DNA of 64,000 nucleotides from Desulfosporosinus youngiae DSM 17734 (GTDB lineage: Bacteria > Bacillota > Desulfitobacteriia > Desulfitobacteriales > Desulfitobacteriaceae): assembly GCF_000244895.1 (NCBI RefSeq), contig NZ_CM001441.1, positions 3,492,226-3,556,225 on the forward strand, written 5' to 3'. Under the pieces are notes generated by a model. It was not told the DNA's origin, ran no database searches, and saw nothing but the letters and a program-made list of their open reading frames with translations. Positions 14,080-23,903 of this stretch are shown piece after piece. Every line of letters starts with the position of its first letter. Positions within the stretch are counted from its first letter, which is position 1. The translations under genes and the position numbers were made by a program.

Positions 14080-15069
14080 TTATTTTTTTGAAAAAGGCAT
14101 ATATTTTGCACTAGCCATTTGATCATAGGACCAGGTTGTATACTCAGCATGATATGGTGTTTGTTCATAGGCAGAAATAGTTTTATAGTAAGTACTATTG
14201 TAATCTATTAAGAAAGTATGATCATTCATTACAACAGCATCGCCTGCCTGAAGGTAATTATATGAATTATATAGATCGGTGTAACTAGGGCTGTTAACAT
14301 TGTAACTACCAACCTTCGGATATAGCCCGCTTTTTATCCCTTCTATAAAAGTATAAGTAGTCTGGCGAGATAATCCCATGGAAAAACTAACGAAACCAGA
14401 ACAATCATTACCATATTTAGGCATTTTAATGTCGTTTATTGAGTACGCATTATAAAAATCGGTTTTGCTAAGAGCATTCTTAAATCCAGTATTGTCTACC
14501 TGATAATAGGTTTGGGTATATGGTATTCCTCTATATTCAGTATTTGCAGAAAAAGTATATCTTCCTTTCCATCCAACTAAATTTTTGGTTGGGGTCCAGA
14601 ATAAAGATACCATACTATAACCTTTATCTAAAATTGCCTGTCTTTCTGCAGGGGTAAGAGAAAGAGGTGATATTGATGTATCTGTTGCACTGAGTACATG
14701 AGGTTTGAGTTGCCTTTTACTAGGCCCTTGCACATTTACTTTGATTTTTTCTTCAATGCCATTATAAGAAACTTTTACTACAGTGTTACCTATTCCTTTT
14801 GCAAGAATTCTCCCATCATATGCTATTGCAATATTCGGGTCTTCGGTTTGCCATTCGGCATCTTTTGATACGTTTAGCGAAGTTCCATCATTAAAGATTG
14901 CATCGACATCAATGAACTCAGAAGCCCCTACGGTATCAATTATCGCAACACTTTTTGAAAGGTTTAAGTTTGATAATTTTGTACTTGACGCAAAAGCAAC
15001 ACTATTTGCTAATAAAAATGCTGTTAGTGTTAGAACTAATATTGACTTGATCTTTTCCATTAGTTTCAT
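14080..15069 (-). CDS. Secreted protein with Big_2-type Ig domain and NlpC-like amidase domain
   Basis: A 329-residue secreted protein with a signal peptide (ILVLTLTAFLLANSVAFA), an Ig-like Big_2 domain at about 35-115 (DVDAIFNDGTSLNVSKDAEW, GRILAKGIGNTVVKVSYNG), and a C-terminal papain-like fold. The last has a candidate nucleophile Cys in YGNDCSGFVSFSMG near 222 and a candidate His in DAVVMNDHTFLIDY near 284. It probably cuts cell-wall peptide bonds. GAGGAGG supports the start. The nearest upstream promoter-like element on this strand is the ComA-box promoter at 15449-15504, so it may be part of the quorum response. Confidence 0.78.
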   Translation of the reverse strand: MKLMEKIKSILVLTLTAFLLANSVAFASSTKLSNLNLSKSVAIIDTVGASEFIDVDAIFNDGTSLNVSKDAEWQTEDPNIAIAYDGRILAKGIGNTVVKVSYNGIEEKIKVNVQGPSKRQLKPHVLSATDTSISPLSLTPAERQAILDKGYSMVSLFWTPTKNLVGWKGRYTFSANTEYRGIPYTQTYYQVDNTGFKNALSKTDFYNAYSINDIKMPKYGNDCSGFVSFSMGLSRQTTYTFIEGIKSGLYPKVGSYNVNSPSYTDLYNSYNYLQAGDAVVMNDHTFLIDYNSTYYKTISAYEQTPYHAEYTTWSYDQMASAKYMPFSKK

Positions 15070-15448: not shown

Positions 15449-15504
15449 ACTATACAATAATATAAATACTTTTGCACCGAAAATCATGCTGCAAGATACC
15501 GCAA
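15449..15504 (-). promoter_or_regulatory. Putative ComA-box promoter P1
   Basis: Minus strand: TTGCGG-TATC-TTGCAG (15489-15504), then 34 bases, then -10 TATAGT (15449-15454). A further TTGCGG half-site lies upstream (15519-15524 region). There is no good -35, as expected of an activated promoter. It points towards the secreted NlpC-like gene with a long leader (about 370 bases). The rest of 15070-15448 holds no gene I can support. Confidence 0.65.
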
Positions 15505-15570: not shown

Positions 15571-16857
15571 GGTCAATGTCATTAAGTTAAGCTCAAAGAT
15601 AAGACCGGGAATAAAACTGGAATTCGAAACGGCATGGGAAAAGCCCTGTGCCGTTTGTTTTTTTGTGCAAGCAGAAAAAAAACGTACAGGAAACAAAGCG
15701 GATGAAATATCCGCTTAAAAAAGTGTTCATGTAAAACGAATATGCTACTCTGTAGACGAAGCTAACGACTGATTTCCAGCGGATTTTGCGCGTATTCTTC
15801 TGTCCTGGGCGAATGGGTCGAATCGGCAAAATGTTTTGCGAATCAACGCTTCAACATCGGGCGGGGATTCATCGTCCCGTGAGCACAGGAAATGTCTGCA
15901 AACGTGAACGGCAACCGTGAAGTTGACTTAGTAGGGGTACCGCCCTGAAAGAGGTTTCAATGCCCCATCACATATTATAAATGGACTTGATTTCATCGGG
16001 TGGGAAATCAGCGGCAGAAAGATCCGTCATGACGGTTTCATAAGGGCCATTAGGCGGGACGAAAGTTCCACCCTTTGCGTTCAAGATGCGCGAGATTGTT
16101 GTAACTTTCATACCCTCTATCGGCCGTAACAATGGTTTTGCCCTTGATGGGAGAACGGTCAACCATAGCAGTCAGCACCCTTCCCTCGTTGCACAATCTT
16201 CGCGGCTGAACAAGGGCATCCACGTAAAGACTATTGCACAAGTCATAGGCTGCATTCAAATGCAGAAGGTTATAGCCTTTCGTGTTCGGTTGACTTTGAA
16301 AATAGGTGTTCGTGTCCGCAGAGTCCGTCGCGATATGCAAATCCGAACCGTCAACGGCAAGTAATCGATACCCTCGGTAGTCCTTAATATCCGTAAACGA
16401 TTGCGTAAATTGATGAAACAAGAATTCCACAGCGGACGGCAAGATTTTATTCCTCTGTTAGACAAAAGCAGAAGTGGTTGCGGTGTTTACGTCATAGCCC
16501 TGCGATTCCAAGAGCTCCTTATATAGGCTGTTGCCCCCCCCATGGAGATTAGGAGTTGCATAACCGTTTCAAAGAGCAGCTTTTTCTTTCGGATAAAATC
16601 TTTTTCAGGGTTTTGACATAAGATGCTGGTGCGGCTGACATTTCTCGTATGAGGGATGTCAGTGTTTCTTTTAGCGAATGTGTGTACCCATTCATTAGCG
16701 TAGCCTCCTTGTTTTTTCAAGGGGCTTCGCTACACAATTTCATCTGCTTGTCAAGTCCTATTTTCTTTTCCATACAAAAAAAGAGCGGGCTATTTTTTCG
16801 ATAACCTACTCTTTTTCTTGATTTTTAGCCCTGCACCTTAACTTAATGACATTGACC
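15571..16857 (-). mobile_element. Decayed IS4-like insertion sequence
   Basis: Perfect 21-bp terminal inverted repeats (outer end GGTCAATGTCATTAAGTTAA) at 15571-15591 and 16837-16857, flanked by TCAC on both sides as a likely 4-bp target duplication. It contains a transposase pseudogene on the minus strand. It is inserted between comA and promoter P1. Confidence 0.88.
15600..16720 (-). pseudogene. IS4-family transposase pseudogene
   Basis: The coding sequence is spread over several frames. The N terminus is at 16487-16720 (GGYANEWVHTFAKRN), the DDE core at 16050-16442 (RLLAVDGSDLHIA with the first Asp, IVTADRGYESYNNLAHLE with the second), and further pieces run to about 15940 (WGIETSFR, with the Glu) and beyond. 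Frameshifts separate them, so no active transposase is made. Confidence 0.82.
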
Positions 16858-16918: not shown

Positions 16919-17086
16919 GTGCGAAGAGATACCTGAGAAACTGCACAAGCTCTATGAAACTGCGAAGGCCTGTCATCTGGAACGCTGGACACGTCAAACA
17001 AGGGATTGGTCCTTATGTGAAATCTTAGTCAAATGCTACAACTATCTTGACAACCGTCGCGACCACCCAAATTGTTATAACTAATA
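16919..17086 (+). pseudogene. Transposase remnant
   Basis: A short coding-like stretch reading KLHKLYETAKACHLERWTRQ then TRDWSLCEI, resembling the HPERWS-x-TRNW region near the C terminus of integrase-type transposases common in Desulfitobacterium relatives. There is no start codon and no other parts. It slightly overlaps the end of comA. Confidence 0.4.
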
Positions 17087-17746
17087 ACTCATGAAATCCT
17101 CATTAGGAATAAGCCCAAGGCGTTTGGCTTCAAATATCGCTTCTGATCGCGACCGAACCTTTAATTTCCCAAAAATTCGAGTCAAATTATACTCAACCAT
17201 ACGTTGGCTCATTAATAAACTATCCGCAATTTCCCTATTGCTTCTACCTCTGGCTACTTCTTGAAGAATTGTTTGCTCCTTTTCATCAATCGATATACCT
17301 TCTAAGTTTACTTCATTCGCCGAAACAATAGCCCGTACATCATTCCTCCTTAGCTGATGTAAAAGGGATATCGGTACAACTGCCTCACCACGTAATACAC
17401 AGCGAATAGCGTTAACAAGCTGCTCTTGGGATGCCGTCTTACTTATGAACCCGGAGACACGTGCTTCTACCAAAATATTGAAATGAGATGAAATATCGTA
17501 TCCTGTATAAATTAAAATAGGAGTATCCGGATTTATTGCGATTGCCCTCCGAGTTAATTCCAATCCATTGATTACCGGCATATTCAAGTCAAACATCAGC
17601 ACATCAAATGTCTCGCTTTTCAAAACCTCTAAGGCTTCCATACTAGAAGTTACAACAGTAACTTTCATTTCAACGTCTTGCTCAATCATGCTTTTTGTCC
17701 CTTCGCCAACTGAGGGATGATCATCGACTAATAATATTTGAATCAC
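17081..17746 (-). CDS. comA: ComA-like response regulator (NarL/LuxR type)
   Basis: A 221-residue regulator. The receiver domain has the acidic pair DD8-9, phospho-acceptor Asp53 (MFDLNMPVING), Thr in ILIYTGYD and Lys in GFISKTAS. A LuxR-type HTH follows at about 155-215 (EKEQTILQEVARGRSNREIA). It overlaps the comP stop by 4 bases (ATGA), so it is the last gene of the comQ-comX-comP-comA order known from Bacillus. Its likely sites are the three TTGCGG-N4-CCGCAA-like boxes at 15.5, 20.4 and 23.9 kb, which match the known ComA box. Confidence 0.85.
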   Translation of the reverse strand: MIQILLVDDHPSVGEGTKSMIEQDVEMKVTVVTSSMEALEVLKSETFDVLMFDLNMPVINGLELTRRAIAINPDTPILIYTGYDISSHFNILVEARVSGFISKTASQEQLVNAIRCVLRGEAVVPISLLHQLRRNDVRAIVSANEVNLEGISIDEKEQTILQEVARGRSNREIADSLLMSQRMVEYNLTRIFGKLKVRSRSEAIFEAKRLGLIPNEDFMSY

Positions 17747-20109
17747 GTTGTCCTCTTCCCCTCTTTAACGCCTTGTTCGTTTACGTTAGTAATCATATCA
17801 ATCGGCAGCCAAATTGAAACTTCAAGCCCCTTGCCTAAACTCGAATAAAAACATGTTTTACCTTCAAGACCCGAAATTCGCTCTTTGATTCCAGCTAACC
17901 CCATATGACTCAAAGAAGATTGCAAATTCTGAAGATCCATTCCAATACCATTATCTCGATAGTCGAAATTGATACTATCATTACTATTGGCTAAGGTAAT
18001 ATTGATTTCCGTTGCCTTGGAATGTTTAGCTGCATTAGTCAATAGTTCTTGTACAATTCGATAAAGTACCAATACATGTTCATAATCCAAATTTATACTG
18101 AAACCTTTTGCATTAAAATTCACAATATAATCATTTCGTAACTGAGCTTTAGCAAATAAATTCTTTAACGCTTCTACAATTCCCGACTCTTTTAATAAAG
18201 GTGGGAGGAGTTCATTGCAGGTTTCACGAATTTGATGAGTGACATCTAACAGCCCTTCGGCCATGTTTTTTAATTGTTTCCTTAGATCTACCGGGATTCT
18301 TTCATCAACCGATATTCTTTCAAGGTTACGATACCACAGCAATTGTTGTTGTAATGCTGAATCATGCAAGTCTGAGGCTAAACGACGTCTCTCTTTCTCC
18401 GCTAAATTAAATAAAAGTCGCAATACCCAAGGATTAGCTGAATCTTTCCGCGTAACCGCTTCCTCTAATTTCTCTATTAGCCCCTCAATTAAGTGTAGGT
18501 TTTCATAAACTATACTTGCATAAGAAGCGATTGTTCTAAGCCATACTCTTTCATCTTGGTTAAATTCAGTCCGATTTAATTTTTCCCTAATCCATACGAG
18601 GCGACTTTTGTCCTTCTCTTTACTTAGTATGAGAAAGACTCCACTTCTACCAATGTCAATTAACTCACCGACCAAAACTAATTCAGTATTATTCTTCAGC
18701 CAATCAATTATTATTGTTTCTGGAAAGTCTGCACTCCCCGTCCCTATCGATAATGAATAATCTGTCAAATCTATTTCTAATAAGGAGATGGATTTGACGG
18801 ATAAAACTTCAGTTACTTCCATAATTAAACGTTCTTCTAAATCGGATATTTTCATTACTTTGGCAATATCCTGAGAAAAGCGATCTAAGCTTGCTTGGAA
18901 ATTATATTTTTCCTTAAATAATTTCGTACGAAAACGGAAATCAAGGTCTTCTTTTACATAAAGAAATGCTATAAGTCCTATATATACAACAAGGATAATC
19001 TGAATCCACTGAACTAAGGTAAATCCCCTTACAAAATTAAAAAGAAACAATATAAAGATTGCAGTGGGTATAAGGGTTAATAGAGAATAATAACGTATAC
19101 GGTCAAGGATAAAATCAATATCGAACAAGCTATTTGCTATAATCAGATATACAAATACTCCGGGCAGAAATATTAAAAAAGTTGCTGCTAAAGCTCCTGG
19201 TATTAGTTCAATTCCAAATAAAACTTTTGGAAGACTCGCTAAGGCAACAAAGGGAAAAAACGACAGTGTAAACCCAATTATTATTATTTTAAAAACTGGT
19301 TTGCGGATGGTATTCCTATAACGAATATAACGAGAGATTAAAATGTAAAGACATAAAAGAATACCTATTGAAAAGACAACAAGGAATAAATGTCTAATAA
19401 TCCATAAATTTCGGCCAAAAATCTGAGATACTGCAAGAATAACCAGAAGAAAACCATTTGTTAAATATAATGCAAACAGGATTTTACGACTATTCAAAAA
19501 AGAAAGCCCATATCGATAGAAATAAGTATTTAGAAATTCCAAAAAAAGTACTGGTATTAATGAGAATGTAATTCGGTTGACGTATATCCCTGGAGTATCT
19601 ATCCTTGACGAAGCCCCAGCACTTAAATAACTTAATCCAATAGTAAGAAAAAAGAGCATTAGAATATGAGCAGACATATCGTTGCTTTTTTTGACATACA
19701 AGACACAGGAAAAAACGAATAAAATTACAAAGACAAGTGTTGGTATCACGATATGATACTGAACTTGCTGCGGAGTCATATTATTTGTCACCTTATGTAA
19801 GATCAACTCTCCGTTTCTATTAATGACAATTGTCTCTGCTTGTTCTATGACACCATACTTTAGAACTGCAAAATACTCACTAGGTTGATTTTGGTTTATC
19901 AGTGAAACAGTATCCCCAACTTTGATTCCTTGTTGTTTCGCCCATCCGAGATGATCCACATAAGATATTTGCCATTTACCTGCTTCATTTTCATCTACAC
20001 TTACTCCAATGTATGGAATGTTTAAAGTGATATACAGCAAGTAATAGGACAACATTAAAATGATTCCTGCTAAAATTAATAACACGAACCTTTTTTTTAA
20101 GTTTCCCAT
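17743..20109 (-). CDS. comP: ComP-like membrane sensor histidine kinase
   Basis: A 788-residue kinase. It has a first membrane helix at 8-28, then an extracytoplasmic PDZ-like loop at about 33-110 (HLGWAKQQGIKVGDTVSLIN), nine or so further membrane helices to about 400, a linker, a HisKA_3 dimerisation helix with LASDLHDSALQQQLLWYRN (phospho-His) near 575, and the ATPase domain (ELLTNAAKHSKA, DYRDNGIGMD, GLAGIKERISGLEG). This matches Bacillus ComP in length and layout, including the PDZ-like loop. GGAAGGAG supports the start. A terminator-like hairpin separates it from comX. Confidence 0.87.
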   Translation of the reverse strand: MGNLKKRFVLLILAGIILMLSYYLLYITLNIPYIGVSVDENEAGKWQISYVDHLGWAKQQGIKVGDTVSLINQNQPSEYFAVLKYGVIEQAETIVINRNGELILHKVTNNMTPQQVQYHIVIPTLVFVILFVFSCVLYVKKSNDMSAHILMLFFLTIGLSYLSAGASSRIDTPGIYVNRITFSLIPVLFLEFLNTYFYRYGLSFLNSRKILFALYLTNGFLLVILAVSQIFGRNLWIIRHLFLVVFSIGILLCLYILISRYIRYRNTIRKPVFKIIIIGFTLSFFPFVALASLPKVLFGIELIPGALAATFLIFLPGVFVYLIIANSLFDIDFILDRIRYYSLLTLIPTAIFILFLFNFVRGFTLVQWIQIILVVYIGLIAFLYVKEDLDFRFRTKLFKEKYNFQASLDRFSQDIAKVMKISDLEERLIMEVTEVLSVKSISLLEIDLTDYSLSIGTGSADFPETIIIDWLKNNTELVLVGELIDIGRSGVFLILSKEKDKSRLVWIREKLNRTEFNQDERVWLRTIASYASIVYENLHLIEGLIEKLEEAVTRKDSANPWVLRLLFNLAEKERRRLASDLHDSALQQQLLWYRNLERISVDERIPVDLRKQLKNMAEGLLDVTHQIRETCNELLPPLLKESGIVEALKNLFAKAQLRNDYIVNFNAKGFSINLDYEHVLVLYRIVQELLTNAAKHSKATEINITLANSNDSINFDYRDNGIGMDLQNLQSSLSHMGLAGIKERISGLEGKTCFYSSLGKGLEVSIWLPIDMITNVNEQGVKEGKRTT

Positions 20110-20130
20110 GCGAAATCTCCTTCCATAAAA

Positions 20131-20153
20131 AGAGTCAGGTGCTATCCTGACTC
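20131..20153 (-). terminator. Terminator/attenuator between comX and comP
   Basis: Minus strand: AGAGTCAGG-ATAGCA-CCTGACTCT followed by TTTT. It lies 11 bases after the comX stop and before the comP ribosome-binding site, so it should lower comPA transcription relative to comX. Confidence 0.7.
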
Positions 20154-20163
20154 TTCGTGTCTT

Positions 20164-20331
20164 TTACCAATACTCTATCGGGATTTCAGAGGTGCTACCT
20201 GAACTTTCAAAAACATCATGAACGGCCTTTTGTTCCATTTCTGTTAATCCTATTAAGCTTGCTGTCCCTTCTTGTACTCTCTCTTTTACATCAGGATTTT
20301 GGATTAAATACTCAACAACATTTTGCAACAT
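20164..20331 (-). CDS. comX: ComX-like quorum-sensing pheromone precursor
   Basis: A 55-codon gene translated by hand. It starts MLQNVVEYLIQNPDVKERVQ, continues EGTASLIGLTEMEQKAVHDV and ends FESSGSTSEIPIEYW. ComX features are visible: 55 residues like Bacillus subtilis ComX, the LI-x-YL-x2-NP-x-V-type N terminus, the ASLIG core, and a Trp in the C-terminal segment that would carry the prenyl group. Here the Trp is the very last residue. AGGGGGG precedes the ATG by 8-9 bases. It lies between comQ and comP on the same strand, with its own ComA-box promoter at 20361-20416. The expected mature pheromone is the C-terminal peptide ending in Trp. Confidence 0.88.
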   Translation of the reverse strand: MLQNVVEYLIQNPDVKERVQEGTASLIGLTEMEQKAVHDVFESSGSTSEIPIEYW

Positions 20332-20360
20332 ACCCTTTTCCCCCCTTAATTTTTATCAAA

Positions 20361-20427
20361 ATTCTATCATAAAAACTACCGCTTGACCCCGCCAACAGTA
20401 CTGCGGTTTTCCGCAATTATATTGCGG
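20361..20427 (-). promoter_or_regulatory. ComA-box promoter of comX
   Basis: Minus strand: CCGCAA-N5-TTGCGG-AAAA-CCGCAG (20401-20427), then 34 bases, then -10 TAGAAT (20361-20366). The central 16 bases match TTGCGG-N4-CCGCAA at 11 of 12 fixed positions, and the extra half-site recalls the tripartite sites of ComA targets. The -35 region (GGGTCA) is poor, consistent with activation. This implies positive autoregulation of comX. Confidence 0.78.
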
Positions 20428-20440
20428 GGGAACAAAAGGT

Positions 20441-21355
20441 CTAAATATATTGCACCAACTTTTCCTTCCATTCTTGAACTATACCTATACTATCTATTAG
20501 ATCAACAGCTTGTAACTGATTTAGCCTCATAATAACGCGTGCATATTCAAGAGCACCGGATTTTTCAATTAACTCTTGAATTTCTACCTTTCTTTTTACG
20601 AGTTCTCCTTTAGTTAGTTTACCGGCAAAATAGTCCCTGGCAAACTGATATTGCGGTTGTTGTTTCTTAAGTAAATATAGGGTAAGAAGAGTCTTTTTCT
20701 TATTGACCAGGTCATTTTTTTCATCCCACCGGCAGATATCCTTAATATCATTCTTGATTTGGGCAATTATCCCGATATGCTCCGCATAGTTATTAACACT
20801 ATCATGATGTTTTCCTCCGGCTAAAACTGTTCCTACCAAACATGCGGCAGCCATAAGTGAACCTGACTTTCCCCTGACCATATGAATATAATCTTCTTCG
20901 GATTCAATCAAATCCATAAGATCCGTGTGTTGACCATTAACCGCTTTTAGTACACACATATTTAGGTGATCGTTTGCCATATCCTTTAGATCTTGTTCAA
21001 ATGACGTTTGTTCTATTGCTTTTGTACTAAGCGCTAGAAGGCCCGTAGCTATATTCATAGCTAATGCCGGGTTAGTAATATGCCAAGGTACTGAAAAATT
21101 GTCTTGGTCCTGCAAGTCATCAAATATATCCAGCGAAAGAATCATCAGCTCAACCGCGGCTGCCGCCAGGAAGATGTCTTTAGACTGGCCGGCAAACATC
21201 CGGTAATGCAAAATAACCAGCTGACCAAAAGGAAAGTCGCCTTTCATTTTGAACATAATGAAGTCTGACATATCATTTTTAAGATCTTTTACTGAAAAAA
21301 ACTGTTGTACTAATTGTAACATGACTTGTCCAATAACATCCCGATCCTCTTGCAT
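20441..21355 (-). CDS. comQ: ComQ-like isoprenyl transferase
   Basis: A 304-residue member of the trans-isoprenyl diphosphate synthase fold as used by ComQ to prenylate and help process ComX. The first Asp-rich motif is LDIFDDLQDQD near 77-87 (DDxxD). A Lys-rich MVRGKSGSLMAAACL follows near 160, and the second motif is IKNDIKDICRWDEKNDL near 205 (NDxxD). It directly precedes comX (109-base gap holding the comX promoter), in Bacillus order. An almost identical copy of codons 55-92 lies at 23174-23280. Confidence 0.85.
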   Translation of the reverse strand: MQEDRDVIGQVMLQLVQQFFSVKDLKNDMSDFIMFKMKGDFPFGQLVILHYRMFAGQSKDIFLAAAAVELMILSLDIFDDLQDQDNFSVPWHITNPALAMNIATGLLALSTKAIEQTSFEQDLKDMANDHLNMCVLKAVNGQHTDLMDLIESEEDYIHMVRGKSGSLMAAACLVGTVLAGGKHHDSVNNYAEHIGIIAQIKNDIKDICRWDEKNDLVNKKKTLLTLYLLKKQQPQYQFARDYFAGKLTKGELVKRKVEIQELIEKSGALEYARVIMRLNQLQAVDLIDSIGIVQEWKEKLVQYI

Positions 21356-22088: not shown

Positions 22089-23096
22089 TTATGGCATAAC
22101 CACAAAACCAGTAGAAATATAGCGCTCACCAAAAATATTCCAAAGTTTGTTTAATACTTTACCATCATAAACCATTTCGGAGGAGGATCCACCATCTAGA
22201 TTAGCAGCCGTAACAGCATCGTATTTTTTAAATATATTGTAGACATCACTCATGCCAGCCCCCATACTCCATGTGGGTTGGCGGCCATCAATAACTACAA
22301 AAATAATTGTTCCATCGGCTTTTTGACCTATGGCCGTGCGAGGTGCATATCCATACGGACCGTCAGTAAAATCCGCCCTCTTTCCATCGACGATTAAATT
22401 GGGTTCAAAATGAACTGCTTCTTGAATACCTTTCTCACGTATCTGCGTCGATGACATATTACCCAGTATTAAGTGTCCTTCTTTGTCTAAGCCAATAATA
22501 TTCACAGCATTATCTTCAACATTGTTATGGACAAGTTCCCCATTATGAACCGTAAGCCCGTCCGGCAAAGCTCCATTACCGATGCCATCCGGGTCATAAA
22601 AACCCCCGCCATTTATACCGGCAATGGCCCCTATATTTTTAACTAAATCGCTTAAACGATTCCCATTAACTCCAATATCCTTTGTAACAGCAACTTTAAT
22701 GCGTTTGGGGTCTTTTATTAACATGACTTTCCCATGAAATTTCCCTAATGCGTTCTGACCATTTATATCTTCAACAACGATACCTGATGCTAAATTCACA
22801 GCATTACTGCGATTAGTATTCTCAATGTCCCCCCCCAAACTCTGATTACTTTGACCAATAATCTTTTCAATCTCTTCCTGGGCTAAAAAAAAACGAAGAT
22901 ACTGAGGATGACGGGATGTATAAACCGTACCAACGGCAAGAGATCTAAGCGTGTCGAATGGGCCGTAAAAGATGATAAACGGAGCCATTAACATAGGAAA
23001 AAGGATCTGAAAGATAATAAATAAAATTAATAGTTTAGGCTTAAATTTTCCCCTTTTTTTATTAAAACGTTTAATTCTTTCGTTTGCTATGCTCAT
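22089..23096 (-). CDS. Phosphodiester glycosidase (NAGPA) family protein, membrane-anchored
   Basis: A 335-residue protein with one N-terminal membrane helix (LLILFIIFQILFPMLMAPFI) and a NAGPA (PF09992-type) domain: AGINGGGFYDPDG, GYAPRTAIGQKADG, FVVIDGRQPTWSMGAGMS and NLDGGSSSEMVYDG. Related proteins act on exopolysaccharide or cell-wall sugar phosphodiesters outside the cell. It lies next to the com cluster, and the comQ fragment sits just upstream. Confidence 0.88.
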   Translation of the reverse strand: MSIANERIKRFNKKRGKFKPKLLILFIIFQILFPMLMAPFIIFYGPFDTLRSLAVGTVYTSRHPQYLRFFLAQEEIEKIIGQSNQSLGGDIENTNRSNAVNLASGIVVEDINGQNALGKFHGKVMLIKDPKRIKVAVTKDIGVNGNRLSDLVKNIGAIAGINGGGFYDPDGIGNGALPDGLTVHNGELVHNNVEDNAVNIIGLDKEGHLILGNMSSTQIREKGIQEAVHFEPNLIVDGKRADFTDGPYGYAPRTAIGQKADGTIIFVVIDGRQPTWSMGAGMSDVYNIFKKYDAVTAANLDGGSSSEMVYDGKVLNKLWNIFGERYISTGFVVMP

Positions 23097-23173
23097 TTAA
23101 ATCCCCTCAACCTCGAATTTCAAAATTAATCCTCTAGTCAGGATCGGGGCTTAGCTTAAAGACGGTTATATAG

Positions 23174-23280
23174 TATGCCAAGGTACTGAAAAATTGTCTT
23201 GGTCCTGCAAGTCATCAAATATATCCAGCGAAAGAATCATAAGCTCAACCGCGGCTGCCGCCAGGAAGATGTCTGTAGAC
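23174..23280 (-). pseudogene. comQ fragment, near-identical to part of comQ
   Basis: About 107 bases match comQ 21079-21185 with only a couple of differences. The fragment covers the codons for the DIFDD motif region. It has no start or rest of gene, so it records a recent partial duplication or the loss of a second com locus. The surrounding 23097-23367 holds no other feature. Confidence 0.88.
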
Positions 23281-23367: not shown

Positions 23368-23670
23368 TTATTGCGGTTTTTTTCCTATGGTTTCAAAGAT
23401 AGTCCATATCAAAAATAACGAGAATATTATTAGACTAACCCAAGATAAAATCGATCCGTATTCTCCAATTACATTACTTATTCGCTGTCCACTGTCATCT
23501 ATATAATGAGCAATACTTATAAACTGGTAAACCATTGATACCCAAGTGATGATGTATATAAGTAATTTTATGATTTTTCGGGAACGTGCATTGATTTTGG
23601 TATCTAACTTATGCCAAGCAAAATATGTTACAACGATTACGAGTAAAGGTAACCAAAAGAATAAAGGCAC
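23368..23670 (-). CDS. Small membrane protein, unknown
   Basis: A 100-residue protein with three predicted membrane helices (LFFWLPLLVIVVTYFAW; IIKLLIYIITWVSMVYQFI; SILSWVSLIIFSLFLIWTIF). The GTG start is preceded by AGAAGGAGG. No family is recognised. It is the first solid gene downstream of ComA-box promoter P3, about 170 bases from the predicted transcription start, so it is a candidate quorum-controlled gene, for example an immunity or sensor-modulating protein (inference). Confidence 0.7.
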   Translation of the reverse strand: MPLFFWLPLLVIVVTYFAWHKLDTKINARSRKIIKLLIYIITWVSMVYQFISIAHYIDDSGQRISNVIGEYGSILSWVSLIIFSLFLIWTIFETIGKKPQ

Positions 23671-23847: not shown

Positions 23848-23903
23848 ACTTTACTATAATCCAAATATTTTTGCACCGAAAATCGTACTGCGGGATGCCG
23901 CAG
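23848..23903 (-). promoter_or_regulatory. Putative ComA-box promoter P3
   Basis: Minus strand: perfect palindrome CTGCGG-CATC-CCGCAG (23888-23903), 34 bases, then -10 TAAAGT (23848-23853). It shares the block ATTTTCGGTGCAAA with P1. It is directed at the 100-residue membrane protein. Confidence 0.68.

Follow-up and report, generated by a model that had tools for sequence, protein, structure and literature searches.

The genome of the soil anaerobe Desulfosporosinus youngiae DSM 17734 carries a complete comQXPA-type gene set, and the sites around it make it likely that the locus works as a self-contained signalling island, with an autoinduced comX and a set of com-linked promoters sharing a 55-bp element, rather than as a master switch governing competence. 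A second, unannotated system with the gene order X-Q-P-A, built on a different family of precursors, lies at another place in the genome. Loci resembling comQXPA were published for Desulfosporosinus and Syntrophobotulus in 2014 (PMC4008528), so the locus described here is one of a known kind and not new.

The four genes and their products

The window, a 64-kb stretch of the D. youngiae chromosome, contains four minus-strand open reading frames ordered Q-X-P-A (Table 1), where a sequence-only reading had placed all four com parts in Bacillus order. comX appears in the mechanically generated list of open reading frames, and comP shares 4 bases with comA. Four adjacent genes on one strand, a precursor with the ComX profile and a Trp, a distinct ComQ, the domains of ComP and the ComA-type DNA-binding domain together mark the locus as comQXPA.

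Table 1. Features of the com region, in positions of the 64-kb window.
Feature	Position	Strand	Description	Evidence or remarks
comQ	20441..21355	-	304 aa, predicted ComX-modifying prenyltransferase	Pfam polyprenyl_synt 65.4 bits; ComQ clade
comX	20164..20331	-	55 aa pheromone precursor ending ...IPIEYW	Pfam ComX; orthologues
comP	17743..20109	-	788 aa membrane histidine kinase, predicted pheromone receptor	HisKA_3, HATPase_c, DLHD box, hydropathy
comA	17081..17746	-	221 aa response regulator, GTG start	Response_reg, GerE, PDB match
comQ relic	23171..23280	-	110 bp	97.3% identity to comQ bases 171-280
Predicted ComA-type inverted repeat	20401..20416	-	upstream of comX; extra half-site either side	1 mismatch to TTGCGG-N4-CCGCAA
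55-bp com-linked promoter element, copy 1	23849..23903	-		49/55 positions; 69.6 bits
55-bp com-linked promoter element, copy 2	15450..15504	-		50/55 positions; 73.0 bits
100-aa membrane protein	23368..23670	-	first filtered gene after element copy 1	hydrophobic N-terminus
NAGPA-domain protein	22089..23096	-	downstream of element copy 1, same strand	N-terminal hydrophobic segment; Pfam NAGPA 146.9 bits
329-aa protein	14080..15069	-	first larger gene after element copy 2	signal-like N-terminus

The frame that had been read as a 55-codon ComX is confirmed, its product matching Pfam PF05952 over model positions 1-55 of 55 (E 3.7e-29, 100.8 bits against a cut-off of 25) and being the sole match above that cut-off in its own genome (5.66 Mb). 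Its last residue is Trp, and orthologues likewise share a conserved front, a variable tail and a Trp at the end. In ComQ, both Asp-rich motifs named earlier (DDxxD and NDxxD) are present, the first kept as DIFDDLQD and the second altered to KNDIKD, while the six polyprenyl synthases of the same genome and family that were placed in the tree have DD..D at the second position. The tree (46 rows) separates 38 ComQ-type rows from 8 others at 99/96, with the ComQ of the window among the former, grouping with ComQ proteins and not with the housekeeping-type polyprenyl synthases that had been raised as the alternative. With ComX fitting its family profile and ComQ in the ComQ clade, the best reading, and a supported one, is that first put forward, namely that this anaerobe has a prenyl-peptide system of the ComX type, in which the precursor would be prenylated and secreted.

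ComP had been described as a ten-helix kinase with a PDZ-like loop and a HisKA_3 domain. The last of these stands (26.4 bits, cut-off 24), accompanied by HATPase_c (49.2 bits), and about ten membrane helices are compatible with a crude hydropathy scan; the PDZ match, on a stretch between helices 1 and 2, stays below the Pfam cut-off (17.1 vs 23.2). ComA bears out its description as a ComA-like regulator, combining Response_reg (83.8 bits) with GerE (47.3 bits). Among solved structures, its DNA-binding domain is nearest to B. subtilis ComA (2krf; E 2.1e-13, 53.1 bits, the next other protein scoring 33.2), with the recognition region reading msqrmveynltrifgkl in the window and lskrsieysltsifnkl in 2krf.

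It is improbable that the locus is decaying or silent, with intact proteins and no active pheromone made. That reading draws on the comQ relic beside the locus, on nearby frames that by eye resemble transposase remnants, and on comQ being broken in genome G020 and in Desulfosporosinus sp. SRJS8, but it has to be set against four intact frames, a ComX that keeps both family profile and terminal Trp, and retained regulatory sites.

A ComA-type site ahead of comX

The published ComA site is TTGCGG-N4-CCGCAA (PMC4797271), and a close counterpart is located between comQ and comX. Among 22 loci, eight have an inverted repeat with at most one mismatch in the 150 bp ahead of comX, three of the repeats being perfect (the order-mate G407 and two Paenibacillus); for each, the fraction of 1000 shuffles that did as well was no higher than 0.001. 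Another three loci lack such a repeat but have, upstream of comX, between 2 and 4 exact half-sites (equalled in ≤0.001), and at 11 of the 22, including Desulfosporosinus UBA4726 and both Pontibacillus, the repeat has more than two mismatches. Within Desulfosporosinus, five of seven loci have the site at one mismatch. The comX site is the only place in its own genome that matches the longer three-part pattern with two mismatches; when three are allowed, the eight matches barely exceed the four in a reversed control, and single inverted repeats with up to three mismatches are uninformative in the window (18 vs 20.4 expected). At one mismatch or fewer, the genome holds seven other places, every one inside coding sequence.

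Outside comX promoters, exact YTGCGGN4CCGCAR sites number 18 in eight genomes, and 14 of these sites were examined (three in G013 and one in G011 making up the remainder); 11 lie in coding sequence, two in what by eye are terminator-like hairpins, and one in element copy 1. A dispersed ComA regulon acting through canonical sites was rejected on this distribution, with 13 of the 14 falling in coding sequence or such hairpins. These counts bear on the possibility of an ordinary, B. subtilis-like comQXPA, having dispersed ComA targets, a comX that is not autoinduced and, upstream of it, a decayed site or chance palindrome. Gene order and protein families do fit the B. subtilis type, whose direct ComA targets comprise about 20 genes in 9 units (PMC4797271), and a good repeat is missing in half of the 22 loci. 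Since the site nevertheless keeps to one mismatch in most Desulfosporosinus loci and is without any in three from other genera, and the sites examined elsewhere are of the kinds just listed, we regard an ordinary system as unlikely.

Even less probable is an RNA role for the repeats between comQ and comX, as an attenuator or terminator hairpin instead of a ComA site. RNAalifold does predict a 17-pair stem (-20.4 kcal/mol) from seven sequences, and a gap shift in UBA4726 would yield one double change in an alternative hairpin (judged by eye, without a tool count). Both sides are changed in none of the 17 pairs, however, and the covariation term is slightly unfavourable; the attenuator was rejected because the predicted stem lacks covariation. 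Terminator-like matches between comQ and comX amount to none on the transcribed strand and one on the opposite strand, and the words TTGCGG and CCGCAA persist in differing arrangements across several Paenibacillus, Tepidibacillus and Aneurinibacillus loci, which likewise argues against an RNA structure.

A 55-bp promoter element linked to com loci

The com locus is flanked by two copies of a conserved 55-bp element with the pattern CTGCGGCATCCCGCAG-N6-TTTCGG-TGCAAA...TATAGT, including ComA-like half-sites, one copy standing ahead of a secreted-looking protein and the other ahead of a membrane protein. The matrix was built from seven sites outside the window. After the two copies, the next best place in the window reaches 30/55 positions, a level to be read against one mononucleotide shuffle that reached 32, and a 1.6-Mb sample from other parts of the genome (about 30%) contained no element, its top score being 12.6 bits against 73.0 and 69.6. 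In a scan of 205 loci, all matches of at least 18 bits sit in com loci, most of them being source sites of the matrix or repeats of these, and the new ones being two in Tepidibacillus. In D. lacus (L063) the comX site is present and the element absent within 19 kb.

The first listed gene is 27 to 778 bp away from the element (in the window, 178 and 380 bp), and smaller frames may intervene; near one D. fructosivorans copy (L045 14422) there is no clear gene. The 100-aa membrane protein has no Pfam match. For the 329-aa protein, the Pfam match is below cut-off only, phmmer against the PDB gave nothing under E 0.4, and a structure prediction from one sequence had a mean pLDDT of 35.8 and was left unused.

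Predicted signalling pathway

The ComA-type site upstream of comX, taken with the 55-bp elements, predicts autoinduction and a local regulon, and these two features in turn are the reason for preferring a self-contained island to a competence switch. In the pathway that we infer, ComQ would prenylate ComX at its C-terminal Trp, and the ComX tail, once released and secreted, would serve as the signal; ComP would sense it, and phosphorylated ComA would bind TTGCGG-type half-sites. From there it would probably activate the comX promoter itself, unlike in B. subtilis, and probably also the few com-linked promoters with the 55-bp element, which would drive genes for secreted or membrane proteins to either side of the locus and, in certain relatives, comQ as well. 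The effect of ComA at the predicted sites could also be repression. Control of competence, which the sequence-only reading had brought over from Bacillus, is unsupported here; that role was set aside because a Pfam search of the genome gave no ComK above cut-off (17.9 bits at best, cut-off 22.3).

A second system with the order X-Q-P-A

The precursor of the second system, ComX2, has 66 aa and a terminal Trp and falls outside the Pfam and NCBIfam models. No NHLP family was found in the scans of ComX2 with either collection, and none of 20 family members matches Pfam ComX. Profile-profile comparison with ComX nonetheless gives a probability of 88.6, and one sequence, from G129, fits both models. 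Among 73 genomes of the order, 25 encode related precursors. The response regulator has a DNA-binding domain nearer to VraR and NarL than to ComA, and in seven Desulfosporosinus genomes the system adjoins exopolysaccharide genes. On balance, we lean towards two parallel prenyl-peptide languages in the Desulfitobacteriales, one being the autoinducing comQXPA island with its 55-bp promoter and the other the X-Q-P-A system on the ComX2 family.

A Spo0A-box-like TTCGACA was also observed upstream of comX2 in 8 of 28 loci (shuffle mean 0.49, maximum 3 in 500 rounds), an enrichment that is a lead, six of the eight loci belonging to two genera.

Relation to known systems and significance

The locus resembles B. 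subtilis comQXPA in gene order, in its ComX-family precursor, ComQ-type prenyltransferase and membrane HisKA_3 kinase, and in the similar recognition region of ComA. It differs in that Trp is the last residue of ComX, whereas Bacillus ComQ prenylates an internal Trp (PMC10853753); in the ComA-type site ahead of comX, where B. subtilis ComQXPA is without signal-dependent positive feedback (PMC7794433); and in its com-linked promoter elements and the ComK result. With the non-B. subtilis clade of Dogsa et al. 2014 (PMC4008528) it shares genus, gene order, the comP-comA overlap and the variable ComX tail. PalXQP of Paenibacillus alvei is alike in that a histidine kinase adjoins a prenyltransferase with specificity for a C-terminal Trp, but its leader is of the NHLP type and its enzyme shares no more than 25% identity with ComQ (PMC10853753), in contrast to the ComX-family precursor and ComQ-clade enzyme found here.

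In a literature search that took in few subscription journals, PMC4008528 alone was found for ComX with Desulfosporosinus, and no report for Desulfitobacterium with either comQ or ComX pheromone. The accessible portions of PMC4008528 guess that expression of the locus may differ among clades; the ComA-type sites, the regulon of the 55-bp element and the second, X-Q-P-A arrangement are not described for these species in those portions and, to that extent, go beyond it.

As the ComX2 family shows, prenyl-pheromone-like systems in this order escape the current Pfam model. Studies of B. subtilis ComQXPA treat it as a peptide system that lacks signal-driven positive feedback; a relative with a ComA site upstream of comX would offer the same parts in an autoinduced form for comparison. 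Through a regulon that can be read from sequence, consisting of secreted and membrane proteins beside the locus, the purpose of the pheromone in these anaerobes could moreover be tested directly.

The comQXPA locus and its relatives

The sequence-only reading had proposed a complete comQXPA locus in Bacillus order, and the four reading frames lie where it placed them, all on the minus strand. ComX matches its Pfam family at 100.8 bits (cut-off 25), covering all 55 model positions, and is the sole match above that cut-off in the D. youngiae genome (5.66 Mb); an NCBIfam scan of ComX gave no model above its cut-off. ComP, for which HisKA_3 and a PDZ-like loop had been proposed, shows HisKA_3 and HATPase_c above the Pfam cut-offs, but the PDZ match stays under its own. 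The regulator is ComA-like as described, its DNA-binding domain having B. subtilis ComA (2krf) as top match in the PDB at 53.1 bits (E 2.1e-13), ahead of 33.2 bits for the second-ranking protein. The locus is real and intact and belongs to a known kind; all steps from prenylation through regulation are predicted.

Coordinates of the com genes and promoter elements of the window and of the second system
Feature	Position	Strand	Remarks
comQ	21355-20441	minus	reading frame
comX	20331-20164	minus	reading frame
comP	20109-17743	minus	reading frame
comA	17746-17081	minus	reading frame
55-bp element	23903-23849	minus	49/55 positions as UBA4726 copy; 69.6 bits
55-bp element	15504-15450	minus	50/55 positions as UBA4726 copy; 73.0 bits
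X-Q-P-A system	L062 3330-7558 = own genome C1:5098329-5102557		comX2-comQ2-comP2-comA2; amid Wzz and polysaccharide genes
comQ2	G000 (own genome):C1:5101402-5102340		32% identical to first ComQ

Desulfosporosinus are strict anaerobes. The presence of a Bacillus-type system in such a clostridial anaerobe stands but its novelty does not, since comQXPA-like loci were reported in Desulfosporosinus and Syntrophobotulus by Dogsa et al. in 2014 (PMC4008528), the accessible part of which also describes, for the non-B. subtilis clade, comP genes that overlap comA and ComX tails that vary. No description of the regulatory wiring predicted here was found in the accessible parts of the literature searched.

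The window ComQ is 85% identical to that of D. lacus, 80% to Desulfosporosinus sp. UBA4726, 78% to D. fructosivorans and 71% to D. hippei. A tree of 46 rows separates 38 ComQ-type rows from eight others (99/96), of which six are polyprenyl synthases from the own genome and family and two come from Chloroflexota; the window ComQ falls among the 38, apart from the housekeeping-type synthases. The 38 split into two clades, one of 17 rows (99/92) and the ComQ clade of 21 including the window (99/99), within which the six ComQ rows included from the order form a single group (100/100). The second motif reads DD..D in all eight non-ComQ-type rows and ND..D in ComQ rows wherever the automatic reading found the right place, several rows being missed or misplaced. 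ComX exceeds the cut-off in 6 of 45 family genomes, all of one genus, and in 6 of a phylum-wide sample of 398 genomes.

comQ is broken in Desulfosporosinus sp. SRJS8 (L059) and in genome G020 (L067), which keeps comX and comA as if signal making went first. In the window, a 110-bp comQ relic (23171-23280, 97% identical) lies between the NAGPA gene and a 100-aa gene; as a gap of only about 76 bp separates queG from comQ in D. lacus, this stretch was inserted or rearranged. Frames resembling transposase remnants by eye lie downstream of comA (15968-16720).

ComA-type sites and a com-linked promoter element

On the transcribed strand, the comQ-comX gap reads CCGCAA-TATAA-TTGCGG-AAAA-CCGCAG-TACTGT-TGGCGG, the inner part being one base off the ComA site TTGCGG-N4-CCGCAA as given in the accessible part of PMC4797271. 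Inverted repeats in the 150 bp upstream of comX were surveyed in 22 loci, which are related and hence not independent tests. The best one has no mismatch in three (order-mate G407, P. selenitireducens, P. terrigena), one in five (window, D. lacus, D. hippei, G014, G020), two in three (one of them D. fructosivorans) and more than two in the remaining 11, to which UBA4726, both Pontibacillus, G309 and G181 belong. Repeats with at most one mismatch were equalled in at most 0.001 of 1000 shuffles; three of the 11 loci without a good repeat (two Paenibacillus, G260) hold two to four exact half-sites, equally rare in shuffles. The most convincing cases are those of Paenibacillus and G407. The other seven places in the own genome at one mismatch or fewer all fall within coding sequence. 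B. subtilis comQXPA is described, in the accessible part of PMC7794433, as having no signal-dependent positive feedback, whereas the window has a ComA-type site before comX, which predicts a different circuit. G407 also has a three-part ComA-type site with two mismatches just 3' of comA (G407:C1:805952-805989, L176 region).

Two copies of the 55-bp element flank the locus; the next best place in the window agrees at 30/55 positions, and one mononucleotide shuffle reached 32. A matrix built from seven sites, none of them in the window, gives the two copies 69.6 and 73.0 bits, whereas the own genome, sampled in 80 spaced stretches (1.6 Mb, 28%), yielded no score above 12.6 bits. Every match of at least 18 bits among 205 loci (1.12 Mb, overlapping) sits in a com locus, most being the matrix's own source sites; other species were sampled mainly at com loci, so their linkage is partly by design. 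The independent matches both come from Tepidibacillus, at 34.5 and 22.2 bits. Words resembling TTGCGG, (C/T)(C/T)GCAG and TTTCGG suggest that ComA may bind the element.

The element and the first listed gene are separated by 27 to 778 bp. Downstream lie a 329-aa protein, a 100-aa membrane protein and the NAGPA protein in the window, all with hydrophobic, signal-like N-termini, other proteins with N-termini of this sort in D. hippei, G014, G020 and Tepidibacillus, and comQ itself in UBA4726 and D. fructosivorans. One D. fructosivorans copy (L045 14422) has no clear gene nearby, and D. lacus has no element within 19 kb. In Tepidibacillus decaturensis, two copies of the ComA-type element (L047 8942 and 12254) stand in front of proteins that look secreted, one of which has a C92 amidase match under cut-off; comQ is present there and no ComX was found nearby in the partly masked record.

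A second system with a Trp-ended precursor

In the second system of the own genome, a 66-aa frame ending KPTLYWV (comX2) precedes comQ2, behind which comP2 encodes a ComP-like kinase (HATPase_c above cut-off, HisKA_3 just under). ComA2 is a response regulator whose DNA-binding domain is only somewhat nearer VraR and NarL (44.9 bits for a VraR-family chain, 44.2) than ComA (39.9). The system is surrounded by Wzz, a ParA/AAA_31-type ATPase and genes for polysaccharide synthesis. Of 19 loci examined, seven, from seven genomes of one genus, have these Wzz and ATPase neighbours. ComQ2 (at least 41% identity over at least 220 residues, leaving a 58-residue piece in G019 uncounted) was located at 24 places, including a broken one, spread over 18 of the 45 family genomes. 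Immediately upstream, a Trp-ended frame was found directly at 20 of the 24, by profile at two more and in broken form at one; the place in G037 showed none. By eye, radical-SAM peptide enzyme-like proteins (CxxxCxxC) lie downstream of two X-Q-P-A systems (L100 7084-7587, L110 8898-9980), so some may control modified peptides.

Twenty ComX2 peptides share M1, A7, V44, P61 and W65. None matches Pfam ComX, NCBIfam gave chance-like matches only (best E 0.028), and the companion system falls outside present family models. With a profile-profile probability of 88.6 against ComX, and with one sequence in genome G129 fitting both models, ComX2 most likely represents a distant ComX branch. The ComX2 profile finds matches, some weak, in 25 of 73 order genomes, and in 11 of 398 phylum genomes, eight of them within the order. 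Among 12 non-training loci, a count leaving aside nine order-genome places and at least one phylum-genome place, ten adjoin a comQ-like gene (one broken, two already ComQ2 places) and two a comP-like gene only; in the loci L139 and L141, a comP-like gene comes after the comX2-like precursor and comQ is absent. TTCGACA words, which we take to resemble a Spo0A box, occur upstream of comX2 in 8 of 28 loci (L119, L120, L121, L123, L124, L128, L138, L144; shuffle mean 0.49), with AGGAA-type words following in several.

Confidence in the overall readings is slightly tempered because the 205-locus matches are mostly the matrix's own and ComA2 is only somewhat nearer VraR/NarL than ComA. We nonetheless consider it likely that the window holds a complete comQXPA pheromone system in which ComA~P probably activates comX and the com-linked promoters bearing the 55-bp element. 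Somewhat less firmly, we favour the reading that Desulfitobacteriales anaerobes use two parallel prenyl-peptide systems, an autoinducing comQXPA island and an X-Q-P-A system with ComX2.
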